Shown: positions 29,560-44,133 of the stretch, in pieces
Layout: each line of letters starts with the position of its first letter
Numbering within the stretch: position 1 is the first letter of the stretch
From: Vibrio sinus
GTDB lineage: Bacteria; Pseudomonadota; Gammaproteobacteria; Enterobacterales; Vibrionaceae
DNA length: 64,000 nt
Direction of reading: 5' to 3'
NCBI RefSeq assembly: GCF_023634645.1
Contig: NZ_JAMKMR010000005.1
Location: forward strand, 1-64,000
Notes under the pieces: generated by a model
What the model was told of the DNA's origin: nothing
Seen by the model: the letters and a program-made list of their open reading frames with translations, nothing else
Databases searched by the model: none
Translations under genes and position numbers: made by a program

Positions 29560-29586
29560 AAAAAAGCCCGACTTCAAGTCGGGCTT
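29560..29586. terminator. Bidirectional terminator between BCCT gene and sdaA
   Basis: Eleven-bp inverted repeat AAGCCCGACTT / AAGTCGGGCTT, with A6 before it (T-run on the minus strand) and CTTCGTCTTC after it. It serves sdaA well and the BCCT gene probably. Confidence 0.9.
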
Positions 29587-40503: not shown

Positions 40504-40974
40504 ATGTCGTATTTAACATTACAGGAATATTCTAGAAAATGGATATTCACCCACCAGTCCATGCCAATTCCAGACGAAGATCTTGAGTTAATTAAACCCA
40601 TGTCGGCGCAGCGATCTGCACAATTTTGGAAAGAAAACATTAGTCCAACTAGCCCGGACTCAGAGCGGTTAAGTTCGCAGGATTGGCCACAAAAAAAATC
40701 CAATTGGTCTAATGAAGTGAATTGGATGATCAATTGGGAAGACGATGAATTAGGCTTACCTGAAGAGATATTAGAACACCTTGATTGGCAAGATGATGTG
40801 ACTGTGTATTTTTGTTATGAGAAATACAATGTTGTTGAAACCAAGTGGCAGGTGTTTAAAAAACATTGGAAGAATTTTCTTTTTTATGATGACGGCCCTA
40901 TCTTGTTGGCACGAAAGAGAAAACAAGCATTATGGTTTAATTCGGAAGGCATGGTAAAACTGGGCTGTCGTTAA
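40504..40974 (+). CDS. DUF2947-like conserved protein
   Basis: Acidic, tryptophan-rich cytoplasmic protein of 156 residues, without signal or membrane segment. The pattern RKWIFTHQSMPI near the N-terminus and VTVYFCYEKYNVVETKW in the second half match what I recall of DUF2947 proteins of vibrios. Eight bp after the HD gene, so probably the last gene of the ycjX-tyrR-rimJ run. Function unknown. Confidence 0.7.
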   Translation: MSYLTLQEYSRKWIFTHQSMPIPDEDLELIKPMSAQRSAQFWKENISPTSPDSERLSSQDWPQKKSNWSNEVNWMINWEDDELGLPEEILEHLDWQDDVTVYFCYEKYNVVETKWQVFKKHWKNFLFYDDGPILLARKRKQALWFNSEGMVKLGCR

Positions 40975-41346
40975 ACAAGTTATATCGATTTCAGTTTATT
41001 TATAGCTCAAATGTAGTCTTGTCTTACGGCCAATAAATGTAATTGCCTATCTATTTTGTCATTATTTATTGGCTAAACTACTACCGAACCCAGTTCTATT
41101 TAGCGTACAGCTGAAATCGTAATAATCCGTAGTAGTAATATCTGCAAAATAAGTTTGTCACTATAGTTTAATGCCATCCTAAATATTGGCTTTTTATACC
41201 TCGCTCTGAGTTTTTCTAGAAATAATTGGCAATAATTTGTGATTAATACCTTTTCACCTATACTGGTTGTTGTATGAATAGCACAATATGTTACTGTTGA
41301 TACCAATATAACTATTAAGAGTTAAAAATCGCTTTAGGACAAAGCA
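40975..41346. other. AT-rich intergenic region before the 58-residue gene
   Basis: 372 bp with stop codons in all frames. No terminator or RNA gene was recognised. It presumably holds the promoter of the small gene that begins at 41347. Confidence 0.35.
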
Positions 41347-41523
41347 GTGGAAACCCTAGAAATACAACTTAAGAAAGATTTTTATGCGCACATTGACTCT
41401 GCGCAGGCTTACAATCAAAGCCAGTCTTTTCCAACGCTCAACTTGTTAACGCAAGAAGAGCTTCAGGAACTAGAGACGGTTTGGATAGAGCTATGTTTGT
41501 GGCAGAGGCAGCAATCGTATTGA
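41347..41523 (+). CDS. Small hypothetical protein, 58 residues
   Basis: Short gene starting with GTG; AGGA lies about 8 nt upstream. The product begins METLEIQLKKDFYAHIDSA and ends LCLWQRQQSY, acidic overall with a glutamate-rich middle helix (LLTQEELQELETVW). Coding-like codon use over 58 codons, one cysteine, no signal or membrane segment. I do not recognise the family. Located between the DUF2947 gene and ribA. Probably real because an open frame of this length with a ribosome site is unlikely in this AT-rich area. Confidence 0.55.
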   Translation: METLEIQLKKDFYAHIDSAQAYNQSQSFPTLNLLTQEELQELETVWIELCLWQRQQSY

Positions 41524-41580
41524 TGTGAAATGTTAACGCATATCACCTCCGAGTCTGCAACAAATGACATGCATCATCTC

Positions 41581-41598
41581 GGTCAATGAACATTGACC
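41581..41598. promoter_or_regulatory. Palindrome GGTCAATG-AA-CATTGACC
   Basis: Perfect 8-bp inverted repeat with a 2-bp spacer, 58 bp after the small gene and about 43 bp upstream of the Zur box. It has no U-run, so it is more likely a protein-binding site or an RNA hairpin than a terminator. Confidence 0.4.
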
Positions 41599-41640
41599 CA
41601 TAATAAATTGTGGTTATTTGTCTGTTTTCTTTCGTTCTAC

Positions 41641-41661
41641 AATTGTTATAATATAACAATT
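41641..41661. promoter_or_regulatory. Zur box in the ribA promoter
   Basis: Perfect 10-1-10 palindrome; its core TGTTATAATATAACA equals the known gammaproteobacterial Zur consensus (ATGTTATAWTATAACAT). A TATAAT at 41647-41652 lies within it, so bound Zur would block the promoter. It lies about 110 bp before the preferred ribA start. Confidence 0.85.
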
Positions 41662-41772
41662 ACACCATTTGCTCCTACACATTGAAAATCGAATAAATGC
41701 CCCAAGATCGAATCAACAGTATAGAAAGCAGATGTGCCTTTCAGTATCAGTGATATTCAAGTGAGTGAAATT

Positions 41773-42369
41773 ATGGCGGAAGTACGTGCCAGAGTGGACT
41801 TCAAAGTAGGTCCAAAGAGTAACATAGAGGCAGAGCTCCTTTCTTTTAATGGCTTAACTCCGGGAAAAGAACATGTGGCTGTCATATTCAAAAGCGCCGA
41901 TAGTAACAATGAACCCCCATTAGTACGTATGCATTCAGAGTGTTTAACCGGTGATGTTTTCCATTCTTCGCGATGTGATTGTGGGGAGCAACTGGACGAG
42001 ACCATTTTGAAAATGGATAAAAATGGCGGTGTATTGCTTTACCTGCGTCAAGAAGGAAGAGGGATTGGCCTCTATAATAAGATTGATGCATATAAACTGC
42101 AAAGTGAAGGGCTTAACACTTACGAAGCGAATAACCATTTAGGTTTTGGAGATGATCTTCGTGACTTTGCTGACGCGGCCAAAATGCTTAATGCATTAAA
42201 CATCCATAAGATAAGATTGATTACTAACAACCCTAAAAAAATCAATGATCTTAAGGATAAAGGAATTGAAATAACGGAAGTTATCAATACATTAGCACAT
42301 ATAAAATCAGGCAATGAAGATTATTTAAAAGCTAAAATATCTCATGGTAAACACAAGCTTAAGTTGTAA
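41773..42369 (+). CDS. ribA: GTP cyclohydrolase II
   Basis: First enzyme of riboflavin synthesis, converting GTP to diaminohydroxypyrimidine-ribosyl phosphate; 198 residues. Zinc ligands are seen in [17 protein letters not shown] (Cys-x10-Cys-x-Cys) and catalytic segments are [18 protein letters not shown] and TNNPKKI. I prefer ATG 41773 ([10 protein letters not shown], as I recall for Vibrio RibA); a GTG at 41734 would add 13 residues. The Zur box upstream points to zinc-responsive control. It stands alone, without ribB, ribE or ribH; possibly a second copy. Confidence 0.93.
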
Positions 42370-42406
42370 TCAATAAGTCTCTCCCCAGCCTTCAGTATCT
42401 TCGATT

Positions 42407-42433
42407 ATGAGCTGATTTATTCAGTCAGCTCAT
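42407..42433 (+). other. Hairpin after ribA
   Basis: Perfect 9-bp stem ATGAGCTGA / TCAGCTCAT, 9-nt loop. No clear T-run follows (GTCTAATAATATAAAAT), so termination would be weak. Confidence 0.4.
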
Positions 42434-42579
42434 GTCTAATAATATAAAATATCTTACTGATTGATATATTAAATTTTGTATCTAACTTGTTTCATAAATA
42501 GGGTGTAGATCACAAATAAATACGACGGATTCATTTCTCTGCCATACTTAGTTTAATTAGAAGAATATGAATCTGAGTT

Positions 42580-44133
42580 ATGAAGAAAATACTGTCACTC
42601 ATAACAATTTGTTTTTGTGCGATATCGATGCCAGCGATGGCATTGGATCGTTTTGAAAAGTTAAACTGGATTAGCCCAGATTCCTCTGTCATCAATCTCA
42701 TACAGTATCCCGAACTGGTCGAGCGTGTTTATCGAGAAAATAACGATAACCTGATTTGGTTTGATGTAGAGCAAGCATTACGGTTTGAGTTTCAGTTGGA
42801 GCTGATAAAAAGAGCCAGAATCAGCCCGTTATTTACTAGCCAACTTCGATTTTTGCAATTTTATCGTAAAGCAAATCGTTGGTTTGAATACGATCTTCTT
42901 GCTACAGATACTATGTTGCTTTATTTAAGTTATGCCGAACAAGCGCCTATTCATGGCGGGAGCTGGTTTTTTGAAAGGCAGTTTGCAAGCTACTTACCAA
43001 AACCAAGTGAAGGTGCGATATTGGCTCTGTTTATCGCAGTCAATATTAATCAACTCGACGATATAATAAATACCTATACACCGAGTTCGAGAAGTTATAA
43101 GGAGCTGCTTACCTCCTATGAGCAACTGCAACAATACGAGCAGAAAAAGGTCACTTTATACGAGCAAGTAGGCGTCAAAAAAGCGGGCGAGCATCTACCT
43201 AAAAAAGCAGATTTAATTGAGCGATTAAAGTTAGTCGATATAAAAATTGATAAAAGAAGTCTGAAGGGGGATCGTTATGATCGCCACTTAGTTAAATCAG
43301 TCCGAGAATTTCAAAAAACGCACGGTTTAAGGGACGATGGAAATATTGATCAAGTGACAGTGAAATGGCTGAATGTCCCAGTAAAAGAAAGACTGTCTAT
43401 GCTTGCGTTAAATGCTGAAAGGTTAAGACTATGGCCTGAACAAAAAGACAGCTTGATCGTTGTAAATGTACCTGACTTCGAAATGAAATACTGGAGATCG
43501 GGTGTCGAAGTGTTCGAATCTAAGGTGGTCGTGGGCCGAAAAAGTCGAAAAACACCTGTAATGGAAACCAACTTGGATTCATTGGTACTCAATCCAGTAT
43601 GGAATGTACCCTGGAAAATTATGGTGCTTGATATTATTCCCAAAGTGAAAAAAGACATTACTTATCTTAGCGAGAACGGAATAGAGATAGTGCAAGAGTG
43701 GCAAGATTTACAAACCATCGATCCCGCAGAGATTGAGTGGACCTCCGTAAATCCATACAAATTCCCGTATAAAATGCGTCAGCGCTCAGGAAATATTAAC
43801 GCGCTGGGTTTATATAAATTTAATACTCCTAACCCTAGGGCCATCTTTCTTCATGACACGCCTAGTAAAGAGCTGTTTAAAAAAGACACACGAGCGTTTA
43901 GTTCAGGTTGTGTACGTATAGAGAAAGCTGGGCTATTTGCTGACCTACTATTGAAAACTCATGCGGTCAAGCAGAGTGAAAATGAACAGGTTGAAATAGA
44001 AAATCAATCGATTCCTCTGAAGAAAGCGATTCCTGTCCACATTATCTACCAGACGGTATGGTTTGAGTCGGGTAGGGTGCATTATCGAGACGATGTATAC
44101 AATTACGACAGTTTTAGTTATACAAAGGGCTAG
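42580..44133 (+). CDS. ldtD: L,D-transpeptidase (YcbB/LdtD type)
   Basis: Periplasmic enzyme that forms 3-3 crosslinks in peptidoglycan, 517 residues with an N-terminal signal (MKKILSLITICFCAISMPAMA). A peptidoglycan-binding domain (about 215-270, LVKSVREFQKTHGLRDDG) precedes the YkuD domain with VVVGRKSRKTPVM, NPVWNVPWKIM and the catalytic HDTPSKELF...FSSGCVRIE (His, then Ser-x-Gly-Cys). Domain order and N-terminal region fit YcbB. Followed, after about 4.2 kb, by mepK and gloC, its E. coli neighbours. Confidence 0.93.
   Translation: MKKILSLITICFCAISMPAMALDRFEKLNWISPDSSVINLIQYPELVERVYRENNDNLIWFDVEQALRFEFQLELIKRARISPLFTSQLRFLQFYRKANRWFEYDLLATDTMLLYLSYAEQAPIHGGSWFFERQFASYLPKPSEGAILALFIAVNINQLDDIINTYTPSSRSYKELLTSYEQLQQYEQKKVTLYEQVGVKKAGEHLPKKADLIERLKLVDIKIDKRSLKGDRYDRHLVKSVREFQKTHGLRDDGNIDQVTVKWLNVPVKERLSMLALNAERLRLWPEQKDSLIVVNVPDFEMKYWRSGVEVFESKVVVGRKSRKTPVMETNLDSLVLNPVWNVPWKIMVLDIIPKVKKDITYLSENGIEIVQEWQDLQTIDPAEIEWTSVNPYKFPYKMRQRSGNINALGLYKFNTPNPRAIFLHDTPSKELFKKDTRAFSSGCVRIEKAGLFADLLLKTHAVKQSENEQVEIENQSIPLKKAIPVHIIYQTVWFESGRVHYRDDVYNYDSFSYTKG

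Follow-up and report, generated by a model that had tools for sequence, protein, structure and literature searches.

The GTP cyclohydrolase II gene ribA of Vibrio sinus stands behind a Zur-type palindrome that covers a predicted promoter, an arrangement through which zinc shortage would likely increase an enzyme that itself needs zinc. The gene lies in the window, the 64,000-nucleotide stretch of contig NZ_JAMKMR010000005.1 analysed here. As a whole, the proposed model has a probability of roughly 0.65: Zur would act at an operator over promoter P1, ribA would rise in zinc shortage and compensate by mass, and housekeeping supply would come from a second promoter-like element, P2, or from a NADAR-RibA fusion. 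Its direct basis is the sites, the genes, the zinc ligands and their conservation. What is new is that the boxed RibA is often the sole ligand-bearing enzyme, that P2 is conserved, and that, as judged by sequence, the P2 consensus is lost in the window and in the related genome G176. The features of the region are:

41641..41661, no strand assigned, predicted Zur operator, the perfect 10-1-10 palindrome AATTGTTATAATATAACAATT (21 bases, centre 41651)
41644..41652, + strand, P1, an extended -10 element (TGtTATAAT) inside the operator, read off the sequence, with predicted promoter activity
41682..41708, + strand, P2 remnant in which 15 bases separate TTGAAA (41682-41687) from CAAGAT (41703-41708); in most relatives the spacer is 17 bases long and the second hexamer is CATAGT
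41759..41768, + strand, conserved leader CAAGTGAGTG just 5' of the ATG, a likely ribosome-binding stretch, from the alignment of relatives
41773..42369, + strand, ribA, GTP cyclohydrolase II of 198 amino acids, from the open reading frame, profile matches and the alignment to 2bz0

The start of ribA is probably the ATG at 41773 and not the GTG at 41734 of the first-stage open reading frame, because the conserved leader precedes this ATG; the length of RibA given above follows from this choice. When aligned to the E. coli GTP cyclohydrolase II 2bz0, RibA retains HSECLTGD...RCDCG, RQEGR and TNNPKK, and the three Cys zinc ligands described in the initial annotation are present together with the catalytic motifs of the family. 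Profile searches found PF00925 and placed PRK00393 above its cut-off, and the equivalog cut-off of TIGR00505 was missed (194 bits vs. 205.85). As had also been claimed, the gene stands alone, flanked by a DUF2947 gene (40504-40974) and an L,D-transpeptidase-like gene (42580-44133). An open reading frame of 58 amino acids (41347-41526, + strand) lies upstream of ribA and has relatives at 68 of 81 ribA loci (80 named loci and L259); it has no Pfam match at E 0.01 and encodes an unnamed small protein that is conserved. An Rfam search of 40900-42600 returned no RNA family.

The palindrome reported earlier is indeed perfect, and the TATAAT said to overlap it (41647-41652) lies within it. A TG ahead of TATAAT makes an extended -10 element, and here the TG is found at 41644-41645. 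The -35 element of P1 is poor, consisting of TTTTCT at 41625-41630 with a spacer of 16. A promoter scan that requires two good hexamers listed neither P1 nor P2, its matches lying only elsewhere (2 vs. 4.4 expected). Among the odd palindromes of the window AATTGTTATAATATAACAATT is the second longest, after a GC-rich one centred at 29575. A whole-genome pattern scan located a single perfect occurrence of its core, TGTTATANTATAACA, in the 4,782,621 bases of the genome, compared with an estimated 0.07 expected by base composition. Looser matching is less informative. Within three mismatches of the 17-mer the genome has 44 places, while the reversed control pattern has 78, so only the best sites are meaningful; in the window, a loose setting gave 5 matches where 3.6 were expected.

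V. sinus has one Fur and one Zur, the latter matching PRK11639 with 174.4 bits (cut-off 167). At two mismatches of the 17-mer, the second-best sites of the genome form a group of four, namely the ribA site and three others. One of these is at znuA, where a one-mismatch core lies 90 bases 5' of the likely (signal-peptide) start, though inside the longest possible open reading frame. Another (C3:11068-11084, L006) is between what we take to be a DUF1007-like/nickel-transporter-like pair and an RND-adaptor-like gene, and the last is just before a presumably gyrA-like gene.

The box is also conserved. With up to three mismatches it is found in 74 of 81 ribA upstream regions (80 named relatives and the window). 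Of the controls, 28 of 1620 shuffled regions contain it, and it is absent from all 80 downstream and all 81 gene-internal regions. The upstream region of L078 is masked and was left out of the count, which reduced the seven regions without a box to six readable ones. Conservation in related vibrios, which the initial annotation had proposed as a check, thus holds for 73 of the 79 readable named relatives, although these counts are not independent because the genomes are related. Together with the sole perfect core, this bears out the earlier description of the palindrome as a Zur-type box. G176, which is closest to the window among the genomes of the genus set (79% identity over 770 bases), has a weaker box than the window, with two core mismatches. 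In V. superstes, V. breoganii, V. comitans and V. inusitatus (L091, L094, L097 and L098) ribA lacks the box, and near-perfect cores are present at one or two other places in each genome.

For vibrios, control of ribA by Zur has already been reported, and the impression that it was an unusual find does not hold because it has been published for other members of the genus. A RegPrecise prediction of this control has been cited, ribA (vc1263) is reported as raised in a V. cholerae delta-zur mutant, and for V. cholerae the gene is also included in the table of a review (PMC8248653, PMC6103462). In wild-type V. parahaemolyticus, a table comparing zinc-deficient with zinc-replete cells gives a 2.1-fold increase for ribA (VP_RS09335) and increases of about 8- to 1000-fold for other Zur genes (PMC9817125). 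The gene in the window resembles both of these orthologs, the one raised in delta-zur and the other under zinc limitation, in having a Zur-type box before a monocistronic ribA. Given these data, there is very little probability that the match is an AT-rich coincidence or that the palindrome serves another regulator. The intergenic DNA is AT-rich, and the looser matches are no commoner than those of the reversed control. However, the perfect core occurs once per genome, the box is kept before ribA throughout the genus, the shuffled, downstream and internal controls are clean, and published Zur data exist for orthologs.

The region between the box and the ATG aligns poorly except for two islands, the leader before the ATG and P2, which consists of TTGAAA (or TTGATT), 17 bases and CATAGT. 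Of the 73 upstream regions with a box, this alignment included the 60 in which the gap from box to ATG is at most 145. With up to one mismatch, P2 is found 59 to 131 bases 5' of the ATG at 69 of 80 named loci and in 20 of 1620 shuffles, the motif having been derived from the same related sequences in which it is counted. Mean column identity is 0.94 in P2 and 0.52 in the rest of 40 dereplicated upstream regions, whose choice by the motif inflates the value of 0.94. Columns that the motif leaves free are also high, for instance the CC before CATAGT (0.95 and 0.88). In one clade the box lies 72 to 124 bases farther upstream, and the position of P2 is unchanged. Among the six readable genomes without a box, two (L047 and L100) have P2 with up to one mismatch; the other four, which are related, score two mismatches, a score reached by 259 of 1620 shuffles. 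P2 could provide basal, Zur-free expression of ribA in most relatives. By the same comparison, its consensus is gone in the window and in G176, where the region reads TTGAAA, a spacer of 16 and CATATC; in the scoring round that included G176, 16 of 30 loci lacked a start by the residue pattern and were left unscored.

The search for a second ribA or ribBA in the genome, also proposed initially, yielded both a protein with zinc ligands and one without. Specifically, PF00925 matches three proteins of V. sinus: RibA, a ligand-bearing NADAR-RibA fusion and a RibB-headed protein that lacks the ligands. The fusion is encoded on the same contig as the boxed ribA and scores above the cut-offs of TIGR02464 and PF08719, and no Zur box was found within 400 bases upstream of it, the best match having five mismatches. 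The same three kinds are present by score in G176, whose fusion has the NADAR part. Like COG3236/NADAR-RibA, a riboflavin-intermediate N-glycosidase, the fusion of the window joins NADAR and GTP cyclohydrolase II in one protein, but it differs in being a second ligand-bearing enzyme beside a boxed ribA. The rib operon of this genome, ribD-ribE-ribH, contains no ribBA between its ribE and ribH genes; an FMN riboswitch accompanies ribB. This operon (C2:91500-99500, L155) lacks ribBX, and the divergent RibB-headed protein, without zinc ligands, is encoded alone on C23 (L159, 4463-5533).

Across the genus, the Cys motif is present in the stand-alone RibA at 80 of 80 named loci, and the ligand motif is present in none of 62 distinct long RibB-headed proteins. 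All matches to the PF00925 family were read in 50 of the 80 named genomes. The high Pfam score of RibBA had suggested that this protein is functional in ordinary vibrios, a reading that was rejected because the high-scoring operonic proteins are without ligands. As far as sequence goes, the operonic "RibBA" of vibrios is RibBX-like and lacks the zinc ligands, and for this reason the boxed RibA is not a spare copy, being the one PF00925 protein that bears ligands in 34 of 50 named genomes. The remaining 16 have another ligand-bearing match, which in 15 carries a NADAR-like part (13 close, in one as a separate frame, and two distant) and in one is an extra RibA. RibBX reportedly goes back to work by Brutinel in 2013 (cited in PMC10012899). 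Both the operonic and the stand-alone RibB-headed proteins of vibrios resemble it, in a comparison by sequence, in lacking the ligands. In Aeromonas salmonicida, RibBX is reported to be without cyclohydrolase activity and a delta-ribA mutant to be an auxotroph (PMC10012899).

For V. cholerae itself, published work argues against RibA as the only enzyme. One study used M9 glucose to assay a delta-zur delta-ribA strain, and riboflavin is not mentioned in the section on this assay; if the strain truly grew without riboflavin, another enzyme exists there. A transposon study treated vc2269 and vc1263 as paralogues and noted that the riboflavin genes are dispensable in LB. In V. mimicus (L143), the protein encoded in the operon is RibB-headed and lacks the ligands; PMC5312566 names the operonic V. 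cholerae gene ribA-COG3236.

The inventory bears on the zinc-starvation paralogues with which the initial annotation compared ribA. As a zinc-sparing duplicate, ribA would be a starvation copy that uses less zinc or another metal, with NADAR-RibA as the housekeeping copy. Both enzymes are encoded in the genome of the window and P2 of its ribA is without consensus, but the ligand pattern of RibA is ordinary, with nothing lost or replaced, and 34 of 50 named genomes have no second ligand-bearing copy, which makes such a zinc-sparing role unlikely. The paralogue frame suits the genus badly, and it fits better in the genome of the window because NADAR-RibA is a second ligand-bearing copy there. 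Zur-controlled FolE2 and other zinc-starvation paralogues are similar in that a cofactor-pathway entry enzyme is under Zur. FolE-IB is described as metal-promiscuous (PMC10882993). In contrast, RibA keeps its zinc site and has no ligand-bearing paralogue in 34 of 50 named genomes.

Compensation by amount is the preferred reading. When zinc is plentiful, Zur bound at 41641-41661, over the extended -10 element of P1, would hold ribA down, and in zinc shortage ribA would be made in larger amounts. Zur likely represses P1, and zinc shortage likely raises RibA; Zur binding at this particular site, the activities of P1 and P2, and the compensation itself are predictions. As RibA itself needs zinc, the most sensible gain would be by mass, in that more RibA is made when fewer of its molecules carry zinc, with no swap to a zinc-free enzyme. 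In most vibrios, P2 between the box and the ATG would keep ribA always on, as it would need to be where RibA is the only ligand-bearing GTP cyclohydrolase II. The small increase of ribA in V. parahaemolyticus relative to other Zur genes is what a second, Zur-free promoter predicts, but it may have other causes, and, should the species be like the clade described above, its box is more distant from P2 than that of most vibrios.

An alternative is that zinc-starved cells need more flavin as such, for flavoenzymes or as secreted flavin, and that Zur lifts the first step of its synthesis. For flavins as electron shuttles or signals, a role suggested in the initial annotation, the analysis yielded evidence in neither direction. 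RibA does catalyze the first step of the riboflavin pathway (PMC10012899, PMC5312566). However, only at ribA did the genome pattern scan show a box, the places that it listed including none at the ribD-ribE-ribH, ribB or ribBX regions, and the reported rise of ribA is small. We consider this alternative improbable.

The window differs from the V. cholerae and V. parahaemolyticus systems in that P2, seen in most relatives including V. mimicus, has lost its consensus and in that the NADAR-RibA fusion is present. Under the compensation model, NADAR-RibA, which has no upstream Zur box, could carry the housekeeping load in this lineage. Since the P2 consensus is lost and the fusion could do this work, ribA would depend more tightly on Zur. 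Among the 50 genomes, the idea that P2 is lost where a second ligand-bearing enzyme exists was not supported, P2 being retained in 13 of 16 genomes with such an enzyme and in 27 of 34 without (p = 1). The hand-over proposed for the lineage of the window thus rests on two related genomes. Likewise, no support was obtained for a loss of the box in genomes whose sole enzyme is RibA, as 27 of 33 readable genomes of this class retain it. All six genomes without a box belong to this class, and none of the 16 with a further enzyme lacks it, but the difference has p = 0.16 and four of these six genomes seem to form one clade. A more specific scenario is offered only tentatively. Vibrios would place their only zinc-dependent flavin entry enzyme on an always-on P2 and a Zur-gated P1, so that shortage brings more of the zinc enzyme and no replacement for it; in the lineage of the window, P2 would have died after NADAR-RibA took over housekeeping, leaving ribA as a pure zinc-starvation gene.

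As far as V. mimicus represents V. cholerae, these results would correct the redundancy of ribA and the operonic ribBA in V. cholerae, where the transposon study treated them as redundant. Overall, the usual account of Zur targets comprises uptake, release from storage and a swap to zinc-free proteins. If the model is true, the target raised through Zur would instead be a zinc-requiring enzyme, and many vibrios have no other enzyme of this kind. This poses the testable question of whether a cell may meet a metal shortage by overproducing the metal enzyme.
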